In this document: piece after piece, positions 7,619 through 56,182 of the stretch
Position numbering within the stretch: the stretch's first letter is position 1
How the letters are laid out: each line of letters opens with the position of its first letter
NCBI GenBank assembly: GCA_038030265.1
Contig: CM075937.1
Coordinates: 28,438,198 to 28,502,197, forward strand
Direction of reading: 5' to 3'
Origin: Corythucha ciliata
Lineage: Eukaryota > Arthropoda > Insecta > Hemiptera > Tingidae
Length of the DNA: 64,000 bases
Notes under the pieces: model-generated
Seen by the model: only the letters and a program-made list of their open reading frames with translations
The model's database searches: none
Told to the model about the DNA's origin: nothing
Made by a program: the position numbers and the translations under genes

Positions 7619-8202
7619 TCAAGTTAAAATTTTTTTCATTTTATTTTGAATTTGTCTAGGATATTCGGGTTTCCTCTTCCTGCTGTTTGCGTAATTTTGT
7701 TGAGCTCTTTTCATATTTAAAAACTTAATTCTTATAAAAATTCTTTGTTTGAAAAAAGACCGAATAATTTCCCTGTCCCGTTCAACAATTTTATCCCCAA
7801 TTACAATATTTGTTAATTTTGACGTGACACGCTTAGATTTTGAAATAGAATTGTTTGCATTGTAATTTAAGAAAACGGTATTCATTTTTTTGACGTCGAG
7901 GAGCCATTTTTCCGATGGCTCAGTAAGTCCACCATAAGACAGAAACCTCAACCAGGTCGGGGCCATACTGTAGCAATGGCTACTTTCGTCGTTCCTCGCA
8001 TAACTCCCTAATTCCGGGTACTTCTTTTTAAATTTCTTAGCGATCCAGCCAGCTAAATAGCTGACGCCATCTTCCTCTGTCACTGTAGTTCCGACACCAT
8101 CCGTGGCCGAAGAAGACGGCAAAGAAACGCTTTCCATTTCCAAATCCGGCAAGTATTCTTCCTCCGAGTCTTTTGGGGCTTCAATTTCTTCTGGTTCAAT
8201 CT
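7619..8202 (-). CDS. P-type transposase, C-terminal exon
   Basis: After an acceptor (TTTCTGCAG, about 8203-8211) this exon opens with an acidic linker (IEPEEIEAPKDSEEEY) and continues to a stop at 7619. It encodes the P-element transposase C-terminal domain, with the recognisable block DGVSYLAGWIAKKFKKKYPE followed by SHCYSMAPTWLRFLSYGGL and a Lys-rich tail. In P-family proteins this region closes the RNase-H-like/GTP-binding body. No internal stop is seen. It is joined to the exon at 8374-10073; a phase-0 donor near 8430-8450 (for example TCC|GTAATG) would keep frame, but I could not fix which donor is used. Confidence 0.75.
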
Positions 8203-8373
8203 GCAGAAAGTTTGTACAATACTATTTGTTCAATAAGACCTTGGATTTTGCCGATTTGAGCCCACACATATCTTAGATACCGGTACGACATAAGATGCAT
8301 TGGTGTAGTTAGCAAATAGTACATAAGGGAAAGAAAGGGTCGTATTATTTCTGTGCAATATTGAACTAACTAC

Positions 8374-10073
8374 TTAGTATCGGTATTGGGAGTACGTGTA
8401 GGCTCTTTCGGCGTCACTAACCACAGCTTTACTCATTACGGAGGATGTAATGAATTCATCCCCTTCCTCGTTTGCTATTGGAGGCATTGAGTTTGTCTTA
8501 TCTTGTATCACTCCTGGATTTTTCCCCAGAAGGATCATTCGAATTCTGTATAAAGCGTTTAGCGGCGTAGGGTGATCATTTAATCCTCCTCGAGTACGAA
8601 TTTGGGAGAAAAAGTTTTCCAATGAGACCTGATTCAACCTGTGTGTCATTAAAAACTTCAACTCCGGATGATCCCGTTTCAAGCTGTCATAGAGGCCTAT
8701 TAGCGATCGAGACGAGATAATTATCGCCTTTTGGAATATTTGGAGTGATGTTTTGTTCATGCATCGCATCGTCTCCATTATCTCTATAACGTCACGAAGG
8801 CACGTCAACTGATCGGCAATATGAATACCGAAAGCTCTTTTCGTTGCTATGCTTGCTGTAGGAGAATATGAGTTCATAATATCGAACCACTGGTTCATTT
8901 TCAAAATGAATTCCGCCGTGGCCGTTTTTTCGCTCTTGTCGCACTCCAAACTGTAAAATAACAAACTTTTTCCTACGGTATTTGAAATTAGCTCGGTTGC
9001 CAGCCTAACATTCTGTCGTTTTGTTTTTTCACAGTTCAAATGTGACTCTGTCAGCTTGAAACATGGTGAAATTTCTTGCGCAGTGGTTTCTTGTAGCTTA
9101 ATCAAAGGCACCTTTGTCACAAGCGAGCCATCTTTCAATTTGAAGCCAGTATCCAACAGCCAATTTCTGGTCAACTTCTGAAGGTGGGGAGGATCCCCAA
9201 AGACGTATATCAATTTTCCTGGGCTTGTTGGATGCTGGAAACTTGTTTGGGTGGTTGTTACTCCCAATTCCCTCCAAACACCTAAATTTGATCCCCCGCA
9301 GTCACTCACACATGCGCAAACGATGTAGTTTATTTTGTGTAATTCGCCGATGAGCTCGAACAGCAAATTTCTCGTCATTTTTTTGTCGAAATCTACATAA
9401 ATTGGTTGTTTCCATTTTCCAACCAAGCCCCTTACCATGACAACTTGCGTTTGGGAGTGTGGTCCCAAAACTTGGTCCTCTAGTCGATCATATTCGTAAA
9501 CAGAACAAACTTTCATCTCGTCGTACTGTATAATAGTGAGTCTCTCCATTTCACTGAGCTCCGAGCCTTTGATCTCCATGAACTTCAAAACTTCTTTTAA
9601 AACACCCGTTCTCATCGTAATTTTGGACGACCATCGTCGAAGGGAACATAGTGCCGGGAGCGGAAAGTGTAGGGTCTCCCTTATAAATTTGTAGGCTCTA
9701 ACACTGAAATATCTCAAAGCAAAAGCATTTGAAATGTCATCCGTTGACCAAACAACCTTCTTTTTCTTCCCAACGATTATTTCTAACTGTGGATTTGTAA
9801 ATATATGGCCAAAAGTCCCGTATATTTCTGTCTTGGTGTCATCTCTCATACTTGAAATTTGCCTCTTGAGCTTCAAAACTTCACACTGAAGACGATTTAT
9901 GGTTTCAAGGCTTTCCATTAGCTGTAGCTTCAAATATTCGTTTTCATATTGAAGGGAATGACAATGCGACATCAGGTCTTGATCGTCGGACTCTCTAGCT
10001 ACAACTTCCAGTTCTTCTTCTCTACCTTGATTATTTAATTCACCATTAGCATCTTCCTCTTCTTGAATAACTA
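8374..10073 (-). CDS. P-element/THAP9-type transposase, central exon
   Basis: This exon encodes about 566 aa. It starts with an acidic segment and a coiled coil (roughly the first 85 residues, likely dimerisation), then the P-type catalytic core. Candidate acidic residues of the RNase-H fold are Asp in IIQYDEMKV, Asp in VSDCGGSNLGVW and Glu in NQVSLENFFSQIRTRGG. FGDPPHLQKLTRNWLLD is a family-conserved block, followed by the C-terminal LNDHPTPLNALYRIRMILLG. The likely acceptor is CTAG|TA at 10074-10075, which is phase-compatible with the THAP exon (12766). P-type enzymes cut and paste DNA using GTP as cofactor. There are no frameshifts or stops through the core, so this gene could be recent. 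The frame stops at 8374, but splicing before that point to the C-terminal exon is expected. Intron 1 (10074-12765) carries an inserted Harbinger-like element. Confidence 0.85.
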
Positions 10074-10822
10074 CTAGGTGCTTCCGTGACACCTTCAAAA
10101 CGAAATAAAATGTTAGGAAACTGTACCTATAAGTAATAAGGAAGTGCCTAATTTAGTCATCCATAGTTTTTCTTATTCTCCGGTAACTCACAATGCTCTG
10201 ATTGGGGTGGAATTTGGCATACAAGTTATAATGTAGTTATAGTATACAAGTATGCGTGAAGATAATAGATAAATTTACTTTGTCCTATAACTTGAGCTCA
10301 TTCTGTCGAGGGAAACGGGAAAATTTAGTACAAGGCGTATTATCGCGCGCGTACATGGTGTGCCTATTCTTTCATACGTTCATACACGTGGATATGAATT
10401 GTGTGTCAAGTTTCAGCCCTATCTGAGCATCTTGAGGGCCCGGCAAGTGGAAAATCTATGTTTCAGTAAATTAAACTAAACGTCACTAGATTCGTGACGT
10501 ATCAATGACATCCCCGAAGCAAAACGGACCAGAAATTTATTCCCTCTTTTTCCCCTTAATTTATTTGTTAACTTTACTAGTAGCGTTGAACTTAGGTGTA
10601 AGAAGCAAAAAATTGAGCATACTTATGATGCGCGTTGTCCTACCTCCATCAATGTGGTACTTTCGTTTAAGATTTCCTCATAAGAAGACATTTCGGTTTT
10701 AATTCCTTCAGAGCACTCAGACGGAGTTATCTTAATCGACGGAATCGCTGGACACGATTGTACGTTACAATCAATAATTATTATAACATTTTGCATGTAA
10801 AATATAGTTATGCTTTGTCTTA

Positions 10823-19136: not shown

Positions 19137-21144
19137 CCATCTTATGGCGTGGATATTGTGGCATTTTTTTTTTTTTAGATATCTAATCACGAAGAGATAT
19201 TGTCTTCCCACACGTCTTTTTTATTATTCCTAACCGGTTTTCGGTCTACAAGGAAACCATCTTCGGGGAAAAAAGAATTCTGCAAATCCCATAAACAACA
19301 TTAAGATTATGACTAGGGACTAGATTAAGAGTTGAAGGGGGGGGGGGGGCAAAACAACTAAGGACTTAACATGGATAAAGGGGGGTCATTTAAAAAAATA
19401 TATTACTATAAAACGTACCTTGTCAAAAAACCTCTAAAAAAAAAAATTTTCGTGTAGAGCACATCTATCACAGTCAAAAACAAATCTGGTATCTTAATTT
19501 CCTTTTAAAGCTATAGTTTTCGGAGGAGCGTTCGGCGGCAGGAGTGGGAGGAGTGAAAGGAAGGGAGATACGGGAACCTCAATTCGCCCGTTGATGCAGT
19601 TCTCGTTGTGGGAGATTTCCTAGTGAATCACGAAGCCCTCCAGAGCATTCAGTACTCCTTTTTTTTTCCGCTCTCTCATTATAATCTGGGCCGTGTGGAC
19701 CCCGTCACCGACGCAGTTGCTGGTATGCTGTCTAAACCTCGAGTCTATTCGGCGGGTATGCTCTTTGAACCTGACAGCAAAACTTCGTGTGGTGCGTCCT
19801 ACATACGTTGCTTCCTTGCAGAGCCCGCACTTGAGCTTGTAGATCCCACTGCCCTTCTCAGGCTCTTTGGGATTCTTCCCGCTTGGTAGCATGTTCTTTA
19901 GAGAACCATTCGCCTTGAACGCTGGTCGGTAACCCGCTCTCTTCAGCACCCTCTCCGCTGTGGAGGCGGAGGTAGACAATAAATTAAATTTCCTGGACCT
20001 GACCATCTCCCGAACAAACACGGCATTAGAATTTGGGGTATATCGCAAGCCAACGGCCACCGACTTAATCATCCCGTCCGAGTCGAACCACCACCCCAAG
20101 CAGAAATTATCAGCTTTGAAGGCTTATGTTCACCGTCTCGTTTCACTACCATTGAGCGAAGAAAATTACAAAAAAGAATGTTTAGCTGTAAGAGAGATAG
20201 CAGTAAATAATGGTTATAATGCCAATATTGTCAATGGCATGATAAAAAAGAAGGAATTCGATCTTTTGTTAGACTCGATCTCTCCCGCACATGCTACAGG
20301 GAACAACGAGTTTAGTGGCGATAAGTGGGTCCCTTTGCCTTATCTGGGTCGGATGTCCTTGGAGGTGGAGAGGGTGCTGAAGAGAGCGGGTTACCGACCA
20401 GCGTTCAAGGCGAATGGTTCTCTAAAGAACATGCTACCAAGCGGGAAGAATCCCAAAGAGCCTGAGAAGGGCAGTGGGATCTACAAGCTCAAGTGCGGGC
20501 TCTGCAAGGAAGCAACGTATGTAGGACGCACCACACGAAGTTTTGCTGTCAGGTTCAAAGAGCATACCCGCCGAATAGACTCGAGGTTTAGACAGCATAC
20601 CAGCAACTGCGTCGGTGACGGGGTCCACACGGCCCAGATTATAATGAGAGAGCGGAAAAAAAAAGGAGTACTGAATGCTCTGGAGGGCTTCGTGATTCAC
20701 GAGGAAATCTCCCACCACGAGAACTGCATCAACGGGCGAATTGAGGTTCCCGTATCTCCCTTCCTTTCACTCCTCCCACTCCTGCCGCCGAACGCTCCTC
20801 CGAAAACTATAGCTTTAAAAGGAAATTAAGATACCAGATTTGTTTTTGACTGTGATAGATGTGCTCTACACGAAAATTTTTTTTTTAGAGGTTTTTTGAC
20901 AAGGTACGTTTTATAGTAATATATTTTTTTAAATGACCCCCTTTATCCATGTTAAATCCTTAGTTGTTTTGCGCCCCCCCCCCCTTCAACTCTTAATCTA
21001 GTCCCTAGTCATAATCTTAATGTTGTTTGTGGAATTTGCAGAATTCTTTTTTCCCCGAAGATGGTTTCCTTGTAGACCGAAAACCGGTTAGGAATAATAA
21101 AAAAGACGTGTGGGAAGACAATATCTCTTCGTGATTAGATATCT
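19137..21144. mobile_element. Penelope-like element, truncated, inverted-copy arrangement
   Basis: A 12-bp direct repeat, ACAACGATAGTT, flanks it (19125-19136 and 21145-21156). The plus strand 19960-20829 encodes the C-terminal part of a Penelope-like protein: the RT thumb (LNFLDLTISR, VYRKPTATDLII, RLVSLPLSEENYKKE) and a GIY-YIG endonuclease (GSGIYKLKCGLC, YVGRTTRSFAVRFKEH). The endonuclease and 3' part occur twice, as inverted arms 19174-19961 and 20367-21144 of nearly identical sequence, separated by the thumb segment. The RT palm with its catalytic aspartates is absent. The left edge has 37 extra bases including a T-tract. Penelope-like insertions are known to form such inverted or tandem partial copies. 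The target was the zinc-finger region of the CMC-like transposase. Confidence 0.85.
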
Positions 21145-30464: not shown

Positions 30465-30570
30465 CACTTATACGCATTCACCCTGTATAACTAGTTAGTT
30501 ACACAAATAGAATTTTTTTACTAGCGTGGTCGCAGCAGTAAGTTGTTCATAAACCGAACGGCTTTCTTAC
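30315..30570. other. Spacer with a 30-nt T-tract
   Basis: Non-coding; a long T run at about 30436-30465. It separates the Harbinger relic from the broken 3' end of the MULE/YqaJ gene. Confidence 0.5.
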
Positions 30571-32252
30571 CTGGTAGAAATACGCGTGCTTTTTGTTTAT
30601 TTCTCGGTCGGTGTTCCAGAAAGTGATTTTTCTTTCCTTCACACCCTCTTCAGGGGTCATTTCGCGACAAGAGTACGGGCACTTGACTTCCACGAGTAAG
30701 TCGTCTTCCGTCATTCCACCAGGCGTAGCTTCCAAGTAAGGAACTTCACTGTCAATTATGAGTCCACACGGGCTAACATTCACATTCAGCACTTTTTCAA
30801 CTTCTCTTAGTGCTTTTGACTCATTGATGCACCCGTATTGTGTCGCTTTCGATGAGAACTCGGAGTACAAAAGTATTTTCACGGTGACAGCAGTATTCGT
30901 ACTTGATTTCAATTTGCATACTGCGCCGAAATTGGAAGCCGTGAGACGTTTTCTTCGTTCTTCTTTCCATTTATCGGAGCAGTCCCGTGTCACATGCTCG
31001 AGTTCTGATTTTTTGATGTCATCAATATCTAGGGATTTCAAGAAAATTGCTGACTTATGCTCGTATTCGTTGTCGGACATGTCCGACGCGAAGTCCATAA
31101 TCTTCTTTACTGCTGAACAATCTCTTTTTTGGAACACGCGTTTCCCGGAGCATGACTTTTCTTGTATTTTTTCTCGTTAAAACCCCCTTCCGTCGAATGA
31201 TCAGGGAGGTAGTTCTCAGGCCGGGGCTTTTTTTTTAGATATTTCTCTTTGAAGCTTCGCGTGCATGGACGGCGAATTGTACGATATGGCTGAAGCCATG
31301 CACCGTCTTTGGTAAGAACCACGCTTAGTAAAATTAATTCTTTTTCCTCCTATCATTTTGCAAATGATAGCGTTGAACGACTCAGCACAGTTGCTAGTAA
31401 GATTCTGTATCAAGCTCTTACTGTGGCGAGCGACGTTAAGAAAAACATCTCGAAGAGATTCACCAATCTTCTCTTTTTCGAAATTGTTGAAAAAATTTGG
31501 CTCATCTTTGTTATCATTGGCGTTGCAAAAGTAGCCCGCGCATTTACTGTGGTCTCCAAATACGTGGCGAGGAACGTTGAGAATATCATCGCGAAGGCTA
31601 GCAATTTTCTCCTGCAGTGAAGTGTCCTCTTCCATCTATCGATGTACGATGACCTTCGAGACAGCAGTCCTCATCCTAAGAATGTTCGACCCTACAACTT
31701 TCCGTAGGCTCAAGGGGCCTGCTCTTTTGTCCTTGACCATTTCACGTAATTTATTGCATAAATTGCGGAGAACGTGGTTTTTGCATTCCACCTTTTCTAC
31801 GGGGGTTGAATTGTATGGTCGAGCGTTCACTATTTTATGATAGACACTGCTGTCTCCGTCTGCGATGAGTTTGTTGAACCTTACGCCGAACATTTCTTCA
31901 CTACTATTAAATCCTTGAAGAATAACATCACTCTCCATGGACAAAGATGAGCCGTTCCAGTTCCTGTAGCATTTATGTTGTTTCTTTAGTTTGTCTTCTT
32001 TCCCTTCGTCTTGTTGACAAACAGAACAGCATTTGTTCCGAACGCCCATGAAGATGATTTTTCTGGTCCTATATCCTACTATAGCAGCCTGGAAACAAAG
32101 ATCAATGTTTAGTTTAATTTTAACCATAGAAACGATCAGAAAAAAACACAACGCCCGAATGCGAGTTATATTTCGTCTTGTAGGATCTTTTGGCCCAACT
32201 GCCGTCAGCCACGACAGGAATCAATGGAGTACCATCGGTAGGGCCGCCCTAA
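30571..32252 (-). pseudogene. Mutator-like transposase fused to a YqaJ exonuclease domain, decayed and truncated at both ends
   Basis: On the minus strand an exon with VVADGSWAKRSYKTKYNSHS (to about 32159) is followed by an intron (acceptor TTTCCAG near 32092) and an exon with AAIVGYRTRKIIFMGVRNKC, LIADGDSSVY and NCAESFNAI. These supply D, D and E candidates of the arthropod Mutator-like domain. A C-terminal YqaJ nuclease-like domain follows (KRLTASNFGAVC, ATPGGMTEDDLLVEVKCPY, HAYFYQ). Damage: an in-frame TAG at 31636-31638 and two frame changes (about 31225-31300 and 31130-31150). The 3' side ends at a splice donor (CAG|GTAAGA near 30571) with no following exon. The 5' side ends where the foldback MULE arm begins at 32254. 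Confidence 0.8.
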
Positions 32253-32253
32253 T

Positions 32254-33784
32254 TTGCAGAATGGACAAAAGCTTGCAGAATGGGGTGTTTAAAATTATTT
32301 ACGACGCTGAAAATTCACACACAGTATTGCACCACCACTATACAAGTTTGATACGGAGCACTTTTCATTTTGTGCAAAAAGTACTAGTACTTCTCCCCAA
32401 GAGGTACTTTGCAGAATGGACAAAAGCTTGCAGAATGGGGTGTTTAAAATTGTGTACGAAGGTGAAAATTCACTCACACTGCACTTTTCATTTTGTGCAA
32501 AAAGTACTAGTACTTCTCCCTGAGAGGTACTTTGCAGAATCTGCAAAGCTTCTCGAGTGCACGTTGCTGAAGGGATAACAGCTTGCAGAACGGGATCTTG
32601 AAAATTTTGCATGATACGGAAAATTCTCACACTATCCCTCGGTGACACCAGCCACACGTCTCAGGATTATTTGAGGAAAAATCCGTTACTCTAGCAACGA
32701 GGCTGCGACAAATGTCGGTCTAGTAGTATAGTTTCGACCAGAAGGGAAGAAGTAAAAATTGACACAATAATAGATGCTTGTGTGGAGTTTGACGCTCTTT
32801 TATTTTTTCCATGTTCCATTGGGCGTTAAAACATTTGGACCCTTAGGAATAAAAAAGAGCATGACCTTATACTTGCATTTTTTCAATCACATCGCCATCA
32901 ATTATGAATAAAATCATCATTTTCATTCATAAATCGATGAGCATAATTGAAGTATAAGGTAATGCTCTTTTTTATTTTTATGGCTCATAGTTTGATAATT
33001 ACGTATTTCGTAAAAACGTACAATGTCCAACTTATTCCTTCCTGCAGCTGCTTTAACCCAACGCAAAATCGTTGGAAATTTGTTATGCTTTGTTAAGAAA
33101 ATGGCTTCAAACAACTGGGTCCACTCGGCACCACGAGGTCTTGTATTCGTTTGGATTTCTGGGTCACATTATACTTTCCTTTCTAAATTTCCTCTCTACG
33201 GATAAATCAATACTTTTCTTCCAATCGTTTCCATGGATCCTCATGTAAGTGAGAATGGTTATGGGATTATTTACGATGGGTGTGTAGTGGGATTTGTAGG
33301 GGAGGGGAGAGGATTTTCTAAAGTACATTCAATTTTAAGAAATGTACATGAATACAGGCGCCTATGTATATAGTGAAATTGAAGAAATTCAAACCTTGTA
33401 GCCTTCTAGATGGCTTTCGCTAGACAGTAAGTGAAAGGTGTTGAAATACGTGTACGTCTCCACTATAGGTACCTTGCAGAACGGGATCTTGAGAATTTTT
33501 CACGAGGCTGAAAATTGCATACTCAGTCTCCCACTGTCATCAGACACAAGGCTCAGGAATATCACTGGAATAATCGGTTTTTCCAGCAACCAGGCTTTGG
33601 CCAATTCTCTGTCTGCTTTCCTTTTTTGGCTATTGTTTCTACCAGATTACGAGGAGCACGAATAAGTGGCGCGATAATTTCTTGTGTACAATGTAGCACT
33701 CTTCGAATTTTGTGAGGTACAAACATTGGAGGTAATTATTTGTTATACTGGGCTAAGGAAATTATACCAAACAACTAGCAACTA
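32254..33784 (+). repeat. Left arm of the foldback MULE
   Basis: Composed of tandem terminal modules (TTGCAGAATGGGGTG...ACGCTGAAAATTCACAC... AAGTACTAGTACTTCTCCC), a middle portion shared with the right arm, and a second module type (CTTGCAGAACGGGATCTTG) at 32582 and 33474. A palindromic insert lies at 32847-32978. Minor frames inside it are repeat sequence. Confidence 0.85.
32847..32978. mobile_element. Palindromic insert in the left arm
   Basis: Inverted ends AATAAAAAAGAGCAT... CTTATACTT and complement, around ATCATCATTTTCATTC. The same palindrome is present at the mirror position (about 41000-41130) in the right arm. Confidence 0.7.
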
Positions 33785-34712
33785 GCAATTTTCACAAAAC
33801 TAGATCAGGACGACTTCTGTAACCCCAATATTTTGATAACTATAGGTATAGTTAGTTTTAAGCATTTTGTCCTTTATACGACGAAATACGTATGGCAATA
33901 CACCAAGGGCGTAGTTCAGTCTTCTTTACGGCCTCAGACTATCACCTACAAGAGGCTCTTTGTCCTGGCACCATCGATCTGGCAAATTTAGGCCGAGTAC
34001 TCAAATGGATCAACCTAAGTGTAGGCATTATTATTTCGTTTAACCAACGTTCTTTGGCGTAATTTGAAAAGTTACTTCGTATTCACTACCGAAAACAGGC
34101 TGGTTTTGCAAAAAAAAGTCCCAAACCCCACAAAAAGTTCAAAAAGGTCGCAGTTTTTCTATAATTTAAGGCTGATCCCTTGGTCTTTCGAGGTCAACAA
34201 TTGGTACACGTTATACCTATACCACCACAGACAACGTGAAACCATAAAATCATCTACCCTAATTATTGCAATCTTGCCCCCCTTTTTATAGCTTATTTTA
34301 CTGGACTCTTAGTTTATCACGTTTTAGGGGTGGTGAATCCGAATACCGATTTCCGACGCTCTACTAGTGCTCCTGCTTTCTGGACTAGGATAAAACTGAA
34401 ACTAGAAGTGCACCCAGTTAGGGGCAGCTAGGAATGGCTAATTTCTGCCACCAAAATAAAAAGAGAAAAAAAGTGTGCATGATATACATATATACACATA
34501 CATATGTATCTCAAGCCCAAGTGTCTCTTCCCAAGTGTCTTAGTGTGCGACAGTTTATTTTATTCTTGCTTGAAATAAGGCGCTGATGTTTAATGCGTGT
34601 CTTGACTTTCTTAGCTCGTATTCTTATTATTTGTTTTTGAGTACTATTCCATTATCTTCTGACATGAAATTCTGACTAAGTATAATAATAGACTATTCGA
34701 CCTCGGTGAATC
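33785..34712. other. 5' flank of the 1039-aa gene
   Basis: Non-coding DNA between the left arm and the start codon at 34713. It must contain the promoter; a (TA/CA)n-like tract (34478-34508) and AT-rich sequence are seen, but no decisive core promoter element. Confidence 0.4.
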
Positions 34713-37700
34713 ATGGATTCCGTCAACAGGATCTATCGATCCTCCAATCACTGGTTAACGGTTCAAGAATATTGTGACATATTACAGACTGTAGATATTA
34801 CCAGAACCATATCTTTTCCTCCGGTCCGTCCCAAGCCTGGTGACCTTTACGTTTACCGTAATGCTGAAAGGCAGGAAGATTGGAAATCGGATCAATACAG
34901 GTGGCGTCACACAGGTATCAAGCCATTGCCAACAAAAAATCCTGTTTTATATTGTCATTATTTTCAGACGTACAAAGGGAAAGGGTTTTTTAAAAGGGCA
35001 TTTACGAAATCAGGGAAAAATTTCTATTCCGACGTTACGATAATTCACTACGTTGGTTCCATTGAAGATGTTGTTCACGACAAACACGGCAATAGGAAAC
35101 GGTCATCCAGAAAACATGTCATGACAGCTAAATCTCAGTTGCTGGAACAAAAAAAGAAACTAGTGCTTCCCCCTCAGCAAGTCTACAAAGAATTGCAGGC
35201 GAAACCTATGCCAGCACAGCTTTGCCCTGTAATGCTTCCGAGAGATCACAAACAAGTCAGTAATAGCATTCTCAACGAGAGAGAACGTAAATTAATAAGC
35301 CAAGACGACATTATTGGTTTGTACGTGCTCCATGAGGAACTCGATGGCTTTGTTACTTTTCTGTCACTATGTCCCTCTCTAGTGGTAATTTGCATAAGTC
35401 ACAATATGATAAATTTGTACACAAAAATGTGTAAATTGGACGGATGCGCCTTATATTACGACACAACTTTCAATTTGGGAGACTTTTACGTGTCCACTTT
35501 GGTTTTTTCCCACACTGCTTTCCTCGAATCACCTGTTATTCCACTCGGTTATCTAATTCACCACTATAAAAAAACTGACGTCCATAGCTTATTTTTTTAT
35601 ATAACGTCCAAACTGTGCCCAGAAATTAAAAGCCAAATCATAGTGACTGACCGTGAAGCGTCTATCCGCAAAGCGATAGTTGAAACTTTACAAGGGTGTC
35701 ACGTATTTTGCTGGAACCACATTTTGACTGATGTGGAGTACTGGCTGAAAAAACAAAAAGGTTCTAACACTGAAGATATTAAAACGTACAAATCACACGT
35801 CTGGGATCTATTAGATTCTGACAGCGAGGACTTGTTTGAAATTAAGTATGAAGATATGTCGTCGGAATGGAGTGAAACCTTCAAAAAATATTTCGACGAT
35901 CATTTAAGAGATGATTTAGTGAAAAGTGGAAAATGGGTTCTCGAGACCCATAAAATCTATCGGGCAACGAGTGGCATAACAATAAACTCATCCGAAAGTT
36001 TTAACTCTGTTCTTAAACGATTCCTGAATAGAACGGAAGTTAGGCCTCAGGTTTTAGTTCTCTCACTGTTTCACCTCGACCTTTTTTATCAAAAAGAAAT
36101 CCTCCGAGGGTATTGTGACACGGGAAACTACAATCTCAAGGACGATATGAGGAAGCGATTCTTTGTTGAAATCGATGAGATTGAGTTCCCGTGTTCACAC
36201 ATACCCCTCGATCAAATTCCGTTCGTTTTCGGTCCCGAATACCCAATGCCTGAGCTAATCGACAGTAAAGTGGAAAAACCCTTTACGAATTACGGAGTTG
36301 CCAAATCGTTGGTTATGATGGGTAAAGTTCATCTGGTAGCAAGCCAGAAACTTTTCATTATTTCGGGTCTAGAAAACGAGAAGAAAAAAAATGTAGTACA
36401 TCTCTTCCCAGCCGAACAATGTTCTTGTAAAGCTCAAAGAGGTTGCCACCACATTCAAGCGGCCAAACTCGCGATAGGTGACGAAAAACAAACACACCCA
36501 TCAGTTAAACTATCGAAGATAATAAAAAGGTCTAAAGGATTCAAATCAGGAAGAAAAACCATCCCCAAAAAAGTCACCATTGTCGAGGCGGCAGACGATT
36601 CCATTTCTTCAGCGAATAAGGAAGAGGAAAATTTGAGTATACTAGTTCCTACGAAGAATGTAGGCTCTAGTATAATAAAGAAAAGGTTCAAAAGACCGTT
36701 AGAAGACCCATCGGAAGGCGACTTAACGGTGAACTTTGACTCACCCTTAGAAATTGAGCCTCTTCTTTCCTTGCCTACTCCCATTGCAAAAAAAATGCAG
36801 AGAGAATTAATTCCAACACAATGCAGGATCGGGGGTTCCCTAATTTATAAATCTGACCTTGACTGCTTAGTGAGCACGAATAATTCATCAACGGATAACT
36901 TCATCAATGATTCTATCATTGAGTCGTATTTATGGATATTGTCGGACGAATACACCAAAAAACACGCACACGTCAGAATATTCACGTGCGATAATATTCT
37001 CCTCCAATACAATTCCTCGGACTCGTTCAAAAACAGCGTAGCCAATTTGCTACGCTATAATATTCCCGATTTTGACGTTATACTTGTCCCTGTTGTGATG
37101 CATGGTCACTGCACATTGCTAATTATTATCACCAGGCATAATTTAATAATTTATCTGGATAGTCTAGGCAGATCAAAAGGCGAACAAGCAGTGCGAAAAT
37201 TATTGTCACTGCTTCGGGCGTATCGAAGATTGAATGGTGATGAATTCGACGCTCGAGACTACAGGATTATAGCTCCCAAAGACGTTCCATTACAGAACAA
37301 TAACTATGATTGTGGAGTGTTTGTAATGAAGTATGCCGAATACATATTAAACGAAGAAATTCCTGATTTTGACAAATATTCAATGGCAATATCACGAGTT
37401 GAGATAAACGATAAAATACTGTCATGCATGGAGGGAAAAAATCAAATACCACCTCCTAGGGAATATAGTATTGAAAGATATTGCCTTGACCTATTGGACT
37501 ACATTGACATCAAGAACGTAGCAGTTTCGAGAACATTTGCCAACACCACGACACCATCCCTGGATACCATTCGCAATTTGATCGAAAAATACCGGGAAGA
37601 TGACATGGAATTCGCTAAGTGCACTCTAGACGACTGTCGCATGTCTGCTCAAGACACCTGGATCATGTGTAGAAAATGCGAAAACTGGTTTCATGTACGG

Positions 37701-37832
37701 TGTGCGCAAATCACAACAAATTCCCGCAGTCATACTTTTATATGCGAAAGGTGCGGACGAATCCCTAAAAAAACGCGAACATTGAAAATCCGACGAGACG
37801 TAAATTACTACTTTCCTTACTTGAAAAAGTAA
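34713..37832 (+). CDS. MULE transposase with SWIM finger, Ulp1/C48 protease domain and PHD finger
   Basis: A single intronless ORF of 1039 aa. Residues 1-200 form an N-terminal region (YRWRHTGIKPLP, SDVTIIHYVG) of unassigned DNA-binding character. The MULE DDE core has Asp250 (YYDTTFNLGDFYVSTLVF), Asp313 (VTDREASIRKAI) and Glu428 (INSSESFNSVLKRF). A SWIM finger is CxCx5CxH at Cys570, Cys572, Cys578, His580. Residues about 700-880 match Ulp1-type (C48) cysteine peptidases: His799, Asp816 (IIYLDSLG), Gln861 and Cys867 (QNNNYDCGVFVMKYAEYIL), so the catalytic set is complete. The C terminus has a PHD finger (C970, C975, C986, C989, H994, C997, C1011, C1014). Predicted role: nuclear transposition with possible de-SUMOylating activity and chromatin reading; the last two are inference. 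Known plant and animal MULE elements also carry Ulp1 domains; the PHD addition is less familiar to me. No disruptions seen. Confidence 0.9.
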   Translation: MDSVNRIYRSSNHWLTVQEYCDILQTVDITRTISFPPVRPKPGDLYVYRNAERQEDWKSDQYRWRHTGIKPLPTKNPVLYCHYFQTYKGKGFFKRAFTKSGKNFYSDVTIIHYVGSIEDVVHDKHGNRKRSSRKHVMTAKSQLLEQKKKLVLPPQQVYKELQAKPMPAQLCPVMLPRDHKQVSNSILNERERKLISQDDIIGLYVLHEELDGFVTFLSLCPSLVVICISHNMINLYTKMCKLDGCALYYDTTFNLGDFYVSTLVFSHTAFLESPVIPLGYLIHHYKKTDVHSLFFYITSKLCPEIKSQIIVTDREASIRKAIVETLQGCHVFCWNHILTDVEYWLKKQKGSNTEDIKTYKSHVWDLLDSDSEDLFEIKYEDMSSEWSETFKKYFDDHLRDDLVKSGKWVLETHKIYRATSGITINSSESFNSVLKRFLNRTEVRPQVLVLSLFHLDLFYQKEILRGYCDTGNYNLKDDMRKRFFVEIDEIEFPCSHIPLDQIPFVFGPEYPMPELIDSKVEKPFTNYGVAKSLVMMGKVHLVASQKLFIISGLENEKKKNVVHLFPAEQCSCKAQRGCHHIQAAKLAIGDEKQTHPSVKLSKIIKRSKGFKSGRKTIPKKVTIVEAADDSISSANKEEENLSILVPTKNVGSSIIKKRFKRPLEDPSEGDLTVNFDSPLEIEPLLSLPTPIAKKMQRELIPTQCRIGGSLIYKSDLDCLVSTNNSSTDNFINDSIIESYLWILSDEYTKKHAHVRIFTCDNILLQYNSSDSFKNSVANLLRYNIPDFDVILVPVVMHGHCTLLIIITRHNLIIYLDSLGRSKGEQAVRKLLSLLRAYRRLNGDEFDARDYRIIAPKDVPLQNNNYDCGVFVMKYAEYILNEEIPDFDKYSMAISRVEINDKILSCMEGKNQIPPPREYSIERYCLDLLDYIDIKNVAVSRTFANTTTPSLDTIRNLIEKYREDDMEFAKCTLDDCRMSAQDTWIMCRKCENWFHVRCAQITTNSRSHTFICERCGRIPKKTRTLKIRRDVNYYFPYLKK

Positions 37833-37845
37833 AAGTGATATAGCT

Positions 37846-37851
37846 AATAAA
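37846..37851 (+). promoter_or_regulatory. Polyadenylation signal AATAAA
   Basis: An AATAAA hexamer begins 13 nt after the stop codon of the 1039-aa ORF, a compact 3' end consistent with a functional transcript unit. It is common by chance in AT-rich DNA. Confidence 0.4.
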
Positions 37852-38314
37852 ACTGAGGTGGCAAATACTAATCCGATATGAGAAAAAAACAAAAATAATA
37901 GCAATTGAAGCGTGAACAAGAATAATTTTTGAAATAGAGGGGGAAAAAAGAGAATAGGAAAAAGTATCAAACGCGAAGTAACAAAAAGAACAAAAAATGA
38001 TTATTTATTAATTTCATATGAAGACTTATAGGTACTTTTAAGTCTTAACTAAGCGTACATCCCTTTGTTGAATCTGTAATTGCATATTTATTGAAGAAAG
38101 TTTTGCCATTTCCGTGGAGTAACGGTTGGGTCTTTTGTACACTTTTGTTGCACGTTGAAAACGCAGAAAACTGCCTATATTCTGTTCAAACCTTTATTAT
38201 AGCTAAGTACATCTTACCATCCTCAGGCATTTACACTGATAACACAAACGAGTTAATGAGAGAAATGAGTTACGGCAATTAACCCAACGGTCTTTTTTCC
38301 CTCTTTGTCATTTT

Positions 38315-39140
38315 TATTTCCATTCGCTAATTCTTTTTTGTCATGAATGGATGTCTGCTTAAGTGTACTTTGCGAAAAATATGTACATAAAGGCTCAAAA
38401 TTCATAGTATTGGTTGTTCTCTGCGTTTTCAACGCATAACAAGTCCAGAAATGTTTTTGTTTTCTATCCGCTTACGGGGAAAAAAAAATTAAATATAATA
38501 ATAATAATGTTCGTTCATGTTTTTTTACCTTTAAATATAACGATGCGCACGTATACGAGTTACTATTTCCATTCACCAACTCTTTTTAGTCATGAATGGA
38601 TGTCCAAGACTACTTAGGTGTACTTGGCGAAAAATATGTAAATAAAGGTTGAAAAATCATAGTATTGGTTGTTCTCTGCGTTTTCAACGCGTAACAAGTC
38701 CTGAAATTATTTTGTTAGAAAGAATTTTCTGTTTTTGTTTATTCTATCCGCTTAAGAAGAAGAAAAAAAAAAAAAAAGTAAAACAAAAAAAAAATATGTT
38801 TTAATGTTTGTTTATGTTTTTTTTGTTTTTTTACGTTTACAAATAACGATGCGTACGTATACGAGATACTATTTCCATTCACGAACTCTTTTTTGTCATG
38901 AATGGATGTCCAAGACTACTAAGGTTCAAAAATCATAGTATTGGTTGTTCTCTGCGTTTTCAACGGGTAACAAGTCCAGAAATTATTTTGTTTGTTTTGT
39001 TAGAAAGAATTTTCTGTTTTTTTTTTTATTCTATCCGCTTAAGAAAAAAAAATTAATAATGTTCATTCATGTTTTTTTTTTACCTTTCAAAATGACGATA
39101 AGTACGTATACGATTTAATATTTCCATTCACTAACTCTTT
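38315..39140 (+). repeat. Tandem repeat of about 250-300 bp units, three copies plus a partial
   Basis: The block TATTTCCATTC...AACTCTTTTT recurs at about 38315, 38563, 38869 and 39119. CATAGTATTGGTTGTTCTCT recurs at about 38405, 38660 and 38935. Units differ by small indels in A/T tracts. It lies 3' of the MULE gene inside the foldback element. Confidence 0.8.
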
Positions 39141-40194
39141 TTTATCCAACAATTTGTATTCGAATAAAACGTTATCCCTCAGACTGGAATAAAAAATGGT
39201 GCCTAACAAAGAACAAATATAAAAAAAGGGGAAGGCGAGAAAGAAGATAAATAATATTGTATATGGAAAAAAAAAAATAATTTTTAACAATGGCCTATCA
39301 TCTTCAAGTGAAGAGTTATTTAGTAATTTCATTTTTTATCGTAAAATCCCTCATCAGCTCTTGGAAATCAAACTCAATTTAATTGTATTTATGTAGAAAG
39401 CTTGGTCAACCATAAACAACTTATATCCAGTCAAGAAGAACATGAACCCTCGGCCAGCGCTCTCTCTCAAAACGTCAAGAATCATCCTGACGAAACGTCG
39501 CGAAGTGATTTTACATTCAGACAGGATATAAGGTCGAAAATAAAACAAATAAATAAATCCAACCTGTCGTAAAAGAAAAAACAATTAAAAATAAAGTGTT
39601 ATTATCAAACTTAAGTTGCATGAAAGGGGTTAGGAAAAATAGCAGGAGGGGCTGATCACAGGAGGGCGAGGTCTACATTTAACTTGACGGGCTATAACTT
39701 CATCTTCCTAAAATTTACTTATAAACTCAAACAATGAGGAAGATGCATGATTTCCAAAAATTTTACATTTGTCATCAAATTTAGTCCCGGAGTTGTTAAA
39801 TGCCTAAACTATCTTCTACTACTCCACTGTTCTAGACAAGACTGTTCGAGGACGGGTCAGAGAAACATCTCTTTCATCACTTATCACTTTAGGTCTAGCG
39901 AAAACCTGCTTGAAGGCTACAAGGTTTGGATTCTTGCCTTTCAACATAATTAGGCCCGTATCGATAGCAATTTCTTGAACTTAAATGTACTTACAGAAAT
40001 CCCCCCATCCAGCCATTCCAACCCCACCATTGCCCACCCCCGCACCCCCTTACCATTCTCATTAGCCTTTACAGAAGACTCCGAACAAATGATTTAAATT
40101 AAAAAAAAAATGATGTGATAATTGCCTACTTGGGGGAATTATTTAGGAGAATATTAGAATTTGATTCAGACATCCAATCGATTAGAAGAACTTT
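39141..40194. other. 3' interior of the foldback element
   Basis: Non-coding. At about 39890-40110 there is a diverged, extra copy of the arm segment found at 40550-40740 (CTAGCGAAAnCCnnCTnGAAGGCTACAAGG, then the CCCC-rich run and ACCATTCTCA), showing that arm modules also exist inside the right arm's inner edge. Confidence 0.5.
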
Positions 40195-41959
40195 TGTTGC
40201 TAGTTGTATGGTATAATTTCCTTAGCCCAGTATAACAAATAATTACCTCCAATGTTTGTACCTCACAAAATTCGAAGAGTGCTACATTGTACACAAGAAA
40301 TTATCGCGCCACTTATTCGTGCTCCTCGTAATCTGGTAGAAACAATAGCCAAAAAAGGAAAGCAGACAGAGAATTGGCCAAAGCCTGGTTGCTGGAAAAA
40401 CCGATTATTACAGTGATATTCCTGAGGCTTGTGTCTGATGACAGTGGGAGACTGAGTATGCAATTTTCAGCCTCGTGAAAAATTCTCAAGATCCCGTTCT
40501 GCAAGGTACCTATAGTGGAGACGTACACGTATTTCAACACCTTTCACTTACTGTCTAGCGAAAGCCATCTAGAAGGCTACAAGGTTTGAATTTCTTCAAT
40601 TTCACTATACATAGGCGCCTGTATTCATGTACATTTCTTAAAATTGAATGTACTTTAGAAAATCCTCTCCCCTCCCCTACAAATCCCACTACACACCCAT
40701 CGTAAATAATCCCATAACCATTCTCACTTACATGAGGATCCATGGAAACGATTGGAAGAAAAGTATTGATTTATCCGTAGAGAGGAAATTTAGAAAGGAA
40801 AGTATAATGTGACCCAGAAATCCAAACGAATACAAGACCTCGTGGTGCCGAGTGGACCCAGTTGTTTGAAGCCATTTTCTTAACAAAGCATAACAAATTT
40901 CCAACGATTTTGCGTTGGGTTAAAGCAGCTGCAGGAAGGAATAAGTTGGACATTGTACGTTTTTACGAAATACGTAATTATCAAACCATGAGCCATAAAA
41001 ATAAAAAAGAGCATTACCTTATACTTCAATTATGCTCATCGATTTATGAATGAAAATGATGATTTTATTCATAATTGATGGCGATGTGATTGAAAAAATG
41101 CAAGTATAAGGTCATGCTCTTTTTTATTCCTAAGGGTCCAAATGTTTTAACGCCCAATGGAACATGGAAAAAATAAAAGAGCGTCAAACTCCACACAAGC
41201 ATCTATTATTGTGTCAATTTTTACTTCTTCCCTTCTGGTCGAAACTATACTAGACCGACATTTGTCGCAGCCTCGTTGCTAGAGTAACGGATTTTTCCTC
41301 AAATAATCCTGAGACGTGTGGCTGGTGTCACCGAGGGATAGTGTGAGAATTTTCCGTATCATGCAAAATTTTCAAGATCCCGTTCTGCAAGCTGTTATCC
41401 CTTCAGCAACGTGCACTCGAGAAGCATTACATACCTTTCACATCCATCCACTTCCTGTCTAGCGCGAGCCAGCTTGAAAGCTACAAGTTTGGATTTCTTG
41501 AGTTACAATATAAACACAGACACGTATATAGATAGGCCTTTTTTGAAGTTGAATAACCAAATGAAAAGTACTCCGTATCAAACTTGTATAGTGGTGGTGC
41601 AATACTGTGTGTGAATTTTCAGCGTCGTACACAATTTTAAACACCCCATTCTGCAAGCTTTTGTCCATTCTGCAAAGTACCTCTCAGGGAGAAGTACTAG
41701 TACTTTTTGCACAAAATGAAAAGTGCTCCGTATCAAACTTGTATAGTGGTGGTGCAATACTGTGTGTGAATTTTCAGCGTCGTACACAATTTTAACCTTT
41801 GCAAGCTTTTGTCCATTCTGCAAAGTACCTCTCGGGCAGAAGTACTAGTACTTTTTGCACAAAATGAAAAGTGCTCCGTATCAAACTTGTATAGTGGTGG
41901 TGCAATACTGTGTGTGAATTTTCAGCGTCGTACAAAATTTTAATCACCCCATTCTGCAA
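40195..41959 (-). repeat. Right arm of the foldback MULE
   Basis: Inverted copy of 32254-33784, longer because it holds three rather than two terminal modules and an extra segment at about 41425-41570 (CTTCCTGTCTAGCGCGAGCC...) absent from the left arm. Over most of its length it is nearly identical to the left arm. Confidence 0.85.
41000..41130. mobile_element. Palindromic insert in the right arm
   Basis: Mirror copy of 32847-32978, at the same position of the arm. Confidence 0.65.
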
Positions 41960-43080
41960 GCAATGGTTCCCAAAGCTTGGAAAAAATGCAGCCCCCCCCC
42001 CCCACCAGCAACATAAAACCATATTGTCCATGAGTTTTCCAAAAGTTTTGGATAGTTGAACCAAACTCTGATGGAATTTTTAAACAAAATGTCCATAAAT
42101 GAACCTAATCATTATATGTAGTACTATAAAACAAATTGCTTTTATTGATTTTTGGTGCCATTAGAATGTGATTCAACTATAGTTAAATTTTGGTGTGACT
42201 TGCCGTTCGCTCAGCCGTTCTTCTTACCACCCCTTCTACCTACTTCGTATAGTGCATTGCAAACTGACTGAGCCCGCGTTTTCTCGCATTTGTTTTTACG
42301 TGAAACGTCTTTATTTTTACTAGTCGTATTCTTTTGTCTCATAGCTGGTGTCAGTGCGGATGTCATTAGAAGCTGAAAATTATTCGAGTAATCAATCAAG
42401 TATGGAGTGGGATAAGAAAGAATTAGTGGGGCCCGAGCTCATGGTGCAATCGAAATGTTCAAGTAAAAAGTTTAATTAACAATTAAAACTTAGAAATCCT
42501 GTCCGATTAACCACTGGAAAGAAACGGCACAAACTGGGTTGAACGACAACGCGCGCTCCTTGTCATTTCACTGCTCCTCCCTAGAAACGGAACGGGGAGC
42601 AGAGCGATGTTCGGTTCGGCAGAATGATCGCCCAATTTGTTCGACCTTTCCGCTCCGCTCAGCGGCAGTTTGTTACAAGTGTGGACGCGGCTTAAGCAAT
42701 CCTAGAAACGAAGACAGGTTGGGGGGTTACCCGCTCCATAGCTTTCCTACCCTACCTGCCTTCACGCTACCGTCCATCACCCCGCAATCCCGTTTGAGAA
42801 GGGATTCCCTTCTCAAACACTTACTCCCCAATAAGAAGATATGAAGAAAACCACAATAATGCATAAATTAATATCTTGGGGCGGAAAGGCGGGGTTGGCT
42901 TCTGCTCCAGCACCAAGCGCATCACCCCGTAGACGAGTGAGAACTAAGACCTTCTTCTGCCGCTTGGGAATGCCATAGGCTGGAAGCCTTAACATTAACG
43001 TTAAATTATGCACGAAAATGCTTCAAATAATTATTAATCACCACTAATATTTCTGTTACAGTGGTAATGTTGTTTGTTCA
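41960..43080. other. Non-coding stretch
   Basis: No gene recognised. It has a C-tract (41992-42003), AT-rich sequence to 42500 and a more GC-rich part (42540-42840) with short frames of no known family. The missing 5' part of the MULE/YqaJ gene was looked for here on the minus strand and not found. Confidence 0.4.
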
Positions 43081-55507: not shown

Positions 55508-56182
55508 AAAGAAAAACGAGACACCACTCACGAACACGAAAACACACACATGTTGCCGTGTGTTGATAATTTTTAGTGCATTTCATTAAAAAAAATGCAC
55601 TATTGGTCTCGCCCTGATGGTCGCACATATGGGTTGTGATACTTTTTTTTCACTTTTCAGAACTCCTAGAACACGAATCCGATGTCGGTTCGATTTGATA
55701 TATATATATATATGGCCTTTCGCTTGTTAGCACGAACGGTCGCAATTTTTGACTTTGGGCAACCAAATTTGGTCTAAAAATCAATAGCGTGAATATCTCG
55801 GACGAGTTTGTGATCCAGATGATGAATCGGTCCACGGGAACGGTATGAAAGAGGGGTTTGAATTTGTTGAAAATTCGCTACCGCACGGATTTTGATGCAA
55901 TTGCCCCAAAATTGAAACGAGTAATGAGAAATGAACGCGCTTTCGTATGAGACCCTTGTGAACCAAATCCGTTGATATGGCAGGGGAGTTCTCGGCGGAG
56001 GGGAGCTATTAAATTAATGCTATGCCTTACTGGACCACCCATTTACCAAAAAATTTCATTGGCATTGTATTTTGAGCCGTCTCTTTTATTTGATTTGCCT
56101 ACAGTCTGATAAATCTTGAGTAAAAAATCCTGAGGTGGGCCAAAAAGGGAGGAACAAAAAAAAATTTAAAATAAATTGTTTC

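Follow-up and report, generated by a model that had tools for sequence, protein, structure and literature searches.

What kind of element carries a single gene in which a transposase core is joined to one domain resembling a SUMO protease and another resembling a histone reader, has it moved recently, and is the combination new? The question is raised by a locus in the window, a 64,000-nucleotide stretch of contig CM075937.1 of the hemipteran Corythucha ciliata, in which inverted arms with outer monomers of ~150 bp enclose a single intronless transposase gene together with a 3′ minisatellite (Table 1). We interpret the locus as a Mutator (MULE) superfamily transposon that is young, moves by cut-and-paste and is potentially autonomous, and put the probability of this reading, for the kind of element and its core mechanism, at roughly 85%; we are less sure of the Rehavkus label considered below.

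Table 1 Features of the element and its left flank, in window coordinates
Feature	Position	Strand	Remarks
YqaJ piece	30547-31176	-	profile match
PF20700 ('Mutator') piece	31636-32151	-	profile match
Expected left target-site copy	32232-32240		9 bp, CCATCGGTA, just left of the element
Left inverted arm	32241-33782	+	1,542 bp; terminus GGGCCGCCCTAATTTGCAG, same letters in the C4 copy
Tandem monomers, outer left arm	32253-32478	+	two, ~155 bp
MITE-like insert, left arm	32838-32988		palindromic, ~150 bp
Transposase ORF	34713-37832	+	intronless, 1,039 aa; CG-1-like, DDE, SWIM, C48, PHD
N-terminal CG-1-like domain	34743-35087	+	WRKY/NAC-like fold; about residues 11-125
DDE (RNase H-like) core	35295-36149	+	residues 195-479; D250, D313, E428
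SWIM motif	36420-36452	+	C570-x-C572...C578-x-H580
Ulp1/SENP (C48) domain	36813-37445	+	residues 701-911; H799, D816, Q861, C867
PHD finger	37620-37754	+	C4HC3; residues 970-1014
Minisatellite, ORF-to-3′ arm interval	38315-39146		~3 diverged copies of a 249-306-bp unit
Right inverted arm	40196-41961	-	1,766 bp; own MITE-like insert at 40990-41138
Tandem monomers, outer right arm	41559-41961		~148 bp, 2.6 copies, 92% match

The first-pass annotation had read a complete-looking DDE set, a SWIM finger, a full set of C48 peptidase residues and a C4HC3 PHD finger in the ORF, and all of them are confirmed. The profile search that it had proposed as a check recovered C48 and PHD, the latter at 23.9 bits against a Pfam cut-off of 24; MULE gave an E value of 0.03, below the cut-off, and Pfam also matched CG-1 at the N terminus. 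The MULE profile matches 19 of the 20 aligned family members, the window protein being the sole miss, and a MULE search of the insect’s own genome, which scored 150 of 510 candidates, did not have the window ORF among the 150 matches listed. In structure comparison, the DDE fold resembles ISCth4, and the core is of the MULE type that marks the superfamily; the C48 fold resembles SENP2, and the catalytic His-Asp-Gln-Cys set on an Ulp1 fold makes this a C48/SENP-type domain. The fold of the N-terminal domain is nearest to SSR4, 4m8b, and NAC and WRKY chains.

Among solved structures, the PHD finger matches MLL5 (E 0.0025), PHF13 (E 0.0031) and, more weakly, BPTF (E 0.066), all of which are readers of H3K4me3. 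The aromatic cage of such a reader includes a tryptophan. In the family comparison, 17 rows have the PHD histidine, and all but one of these (16) retain Trp992, which precedes it. Because of these matches and this conserved residue, reading of methylated H3K4 by the finger is plausible.

Arms of 1.5–1.8 kb had been proposed to frame the ORF, and they do so at 1.54 and 1.77 kb; the N-terminal CG-1/WRKY/NAC-like domain, the minisatellite and the tandem monomers of the outer arms are additions to that description. We place the left end at 32241 because the terminus there is identical in a second copy, on contig C4. This border adjoins a fragment of a minus-strand gene of PF20700/YqaJ type, the final stretch of which, up to 32240, was read by eye from the translation. 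On the other side, the monomer array breaks off out of phase at 41961 and adjoins CAATGGTTCCCAAAG, which we take to resemble a hAT end. No 9-bp duplication pairing with the left flank was found on the right side of the window copy. The gene is intact, but the unpaired target site and out-of-phase right array suggest that the insertion was altered at its right end or arose by recombination between copies.

Searching the genome with the arm gave 87 match rows from 40 scored of 277 candidates. Three places among these rows are near full length, namely both arms of the window copy and a single site on C4. A further 37 rows (E <= 4e-35) are confined to query positions 100–289, which correspond to the MITE-like palindrome of ~150 bp that is present in both window arms and in the C4 copy; this insert thus has at least 37 further match rows in the genome, at 83–90% identity. 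Elsewhere in the window, two ORF pieces on the minus strand (7619–10152) encode a P-element-type transposase, and a plus-strand ORF at 19933–20829 has a weak GIY-YIG match (E 0.0082) and perhaps, we presume, comes from a Penelope-like retroelement. Between about 55700 and 60800, identical short strings, found at 55807, 57939, 60560 and positions nearby, point to large repeated units about 2.1–2.6 kb apart.

The C4 copy (about 2182399–2187339; 4.9 kb) is internally deleted and has different flanks. It retains the 5′ region, with 227 bp of its own sequence inside it, and the first 102 codons of the ORF, and has lost the equivalent of 35019–40157 along with the greater part of one arm. On both sides it is flanked by ATTATAAAG, a perfect target-site duplication of 9 bp, and its ends start GGGCCGCCCTAATTTGCAG and GGGACAATCTAATTTGCAG; this deleted sister copy defines the ends of the element. 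The window arms are 99% identical to the C4 arm (left, 11 differences over 1,235 sites; right, 9 over 1,235), the interiors differ at 22 of 1,229 sites, and the shared codons carry two nonsynonymous and two synonymous codon changes. Differences this few mark recent movement of the family and a young element. The monomer motif occurs twice on one side of the C4 copy and 11 times on the other (about 2185660–2187339), compared with two to three in the window; the C4 array may be a satellite that is expanding within the end of a transposon.

This copy bears directly on two other accounts of the locus. The inner arms of the window copy are 99.5% alike (6 differences over 1,236 sites), as might be expected if they were a mirror artefact of the assembly, the outcome that the first-pass annotation had named as fatal to its reading. 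The arms differ, however, in substitutions, indels, monomer number and one stretch confined to the right arm, and they are no artefact because the independent C4 copy shares them at 99% identity with other flanks and its own target-site duplication; we give the artefact almost no credence. Scarcely more probable, and disfavoured, is a domesticated host gene lying by chance between inverted repeats. A single ORF-bearing copy, with its ORF intact, would suit such a gene, but the 5′ region, the 102 codons and the arms recur on C4 between 9-bp duplications at 98–99% identity. A transposon remains our reading, and the view that the locus is a long-armed element with a MULE-type transposase bearing SWIM, Ulp1/C48 and PHD domains was right.

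The same annotation had considered the domain combination unusual, which the family does not support. Public protein searches returned 22, 54 and 40 matches, in overlapping sets; their named sources are a psyllid (Cyamophila), a mirid bug (Apolygus), a mite (Leptotrombidium), bivalves (Ruditapes, Mytilus, Crassostrea and Pinctada), frogs (Spea and Pelodytes), a hemichordate (Ptychodera) and a sponge (Dysidea). One match lies in a bacterial bin (Candidatus Thiodiazotropha, P0016), and we infer that it is host DNA within that bin. Residues were compared across 27 rows, comprising the window protein and 26 of 91 fetched proteins (800–1,699 aa), the other 65 being excluded on length. All 27 hold D, D and E and the four SWIM ligands. 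Within the C48 domain, H799 is kept in 24 rows, D816 in 19, and Q861 and C867 in 22, with the full tetrad in 18; the Gln-Cys end is missing in P0004 (psyllid), P0015, P0058, P0060 and P0087, and D816 is replaced in P0004, P0063, P0086, P0087, P0088 and P0089. The PHD histidine is present in 17 rows and absent from 10, and all eight PHD ligands are found in 15. Twelve rows, from the 27 that count the window protein, combine a complete C48 tetrad with the whole set of eight PHD ligands; Mytilus P0008 and Ruditapes P0012 are among them.

In a single chain, P0056 has a SWIM motif and Pfam matches to CG-1, MULE, C48 and PHD that each exceed the cut-off, and P0007, P0012 and P0085 keep the DDE, SWIM, C48 and PHD residues (the window protein is 27% identical to P0007 and 32% to P0012). 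The frog, hemichordate and sponge matches have CG-1 and/or MULE, with no C48 or PHD in precomputed Pfam annotation. Given P0056 and the 12 of 27 rows, the DDE-SWIM-C48-PHD architecture is usual for the family, though perhaps not universal. In a DDE tree of 20 family members, the window protein and P0001–P0006 form a supported set of seven (98/99). P0085 differs from the window protein in an extra Macro domain: its DDE-SWIM part, recognised by motif, is followed by Pfam matches to Macro, C48 and PHD in that order; in P0060 and P0073, as in P0085, this ADP-ribose domain is located after the SWIM motif. The C-terminal modules of these transposases appear to form an exchangeable set.

Published systems point the same way. 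As early as 2010, alignments covering Ulp1 and PHD domains from both Ginger1 and Mutator transposases were printed in PMC2836005, which suggests an active part for Ulp1 in transposition and names Mutator elements with Ulp1 in hydra, lancelet and plants. As described there, both groups have a C-terminal Ulp1, with or without PHD, on a DDE transposase, as here. Ginger1-9_HM carries both domains, like the window protein, whereas the Ginger1 core is of the Gypsy-integrase type rather than MULE. Plant Kaonashi (KI) elements are likewise MULEs bearing a ULP protease domain but, in the account in PMC2528002, are non-TIR elements with that domain reversed relative to mudrA. In PMC13359780, arthropod MULEs reach 9,972 bp and their transposases 1,136 aa, while the longest TIRs measure 1,193 bp in its text and 1,527 in its Table 1. 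By this standard, element size and protein length fall near the top of what is known, and the arms equal or marginally exceed the maximum.

Our match to Rehavkus is by published feature descriptions, the DDE tree having been built with no Rehavkus reference. The table in PMC6446971 gives Rehavkus in Arthropoda and Annelida, with 9-bp target-site duplications, TIRs of 26–400 bp, a PHD finger and a minisatellite that the text, which cites Rehavkus-1_HR, places before the 3′ TIR. PMC10218199 describes Rehavkus-1_TC of Tribolium castaneum as ~9.5 kb long, with inverted termini made of tandem 164-bp satellite monomers, mostly 5 and 8 in number. The present element shares the PHD finger, the position of the minisatellite, the size, the satellite monomers inside inverted termini and, on C4, the 9-bp duplication, which equally fits the ~9 bp of the superfamily (8–11 bp for the MULE groups tabled in PMC6446971). 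Its arms of 1.5–1.8 kb exceed the tabled TIRs, as do the monomer arrays of Rehavkus-1_TC. C48 and CG-1, present in the window transposase, go unmentioned in the Rehavkus descriptions of these two sources.

The same kind of element, with the same mechanism, could instead bear another label, namely Phantom, MULE-Mollusca or an unnamed animal CG-1-MULE-SWIM-C48-PHD clade, its Rehavkus-like ends being convergent. We regard this as possible, at well short of even odds. SWIM and the minisatellite do not separate Rehavkus from Phantom because, according to PMC6446971, Phantom lists SWIM and aphid Phantom has a minisatellite after the transposase ORF; the window element is compatible with both. Several of its relatives are from bivalves, and the Rehavkus row of that table gives a PHD finger and no Ulp1. 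By contrast, the zinc finger that the table assigns to Rehavkus is of the PHD type, and an anatomy of 9.5 kb with satellite in the ends fits Rehavkus-1_TC.

For a MULE under either name, we propose that the CG-1/WRKY-like domain and SWIM finger would bind the arms, and that the DDE core would cut and join DNA with a 9-bp stagger, by the chemistry of the superfamily; the duplication behind this proposed stagger is observed on the C4 copy. The Ulp1-type protease may then act on the transposase, or on host proteins at the site, to strip off SUMO or a related modifier, and the PHD finger may dock onto histone H3 tails. The first-pass annotation had suggested that such a protein could counter host silencing or target insertion, and the PHD matches and conserved tryptophan give at most an indirect hint of this. 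It is conceivable, if rather improbable, that the C-terminal PHD/Ulp1/Macro set serves to deal with host chromatin, with the PHD finger steering insertion to H3K4-methylated promoters and the protease removing SUMO-dependent silencing or repair signals.

The locus represents no new type of element, and the Ulp1/PHD-bearing MULE family is already widespread. It offers an example of a young, anatomically well-defined animal MULE with SUMO-protease-like and histone-reader-like domains fused to its transposase, and it makes the suggestion printed in PMC2836005, that Ulp1 acts in transposition, testable in a cell assay.
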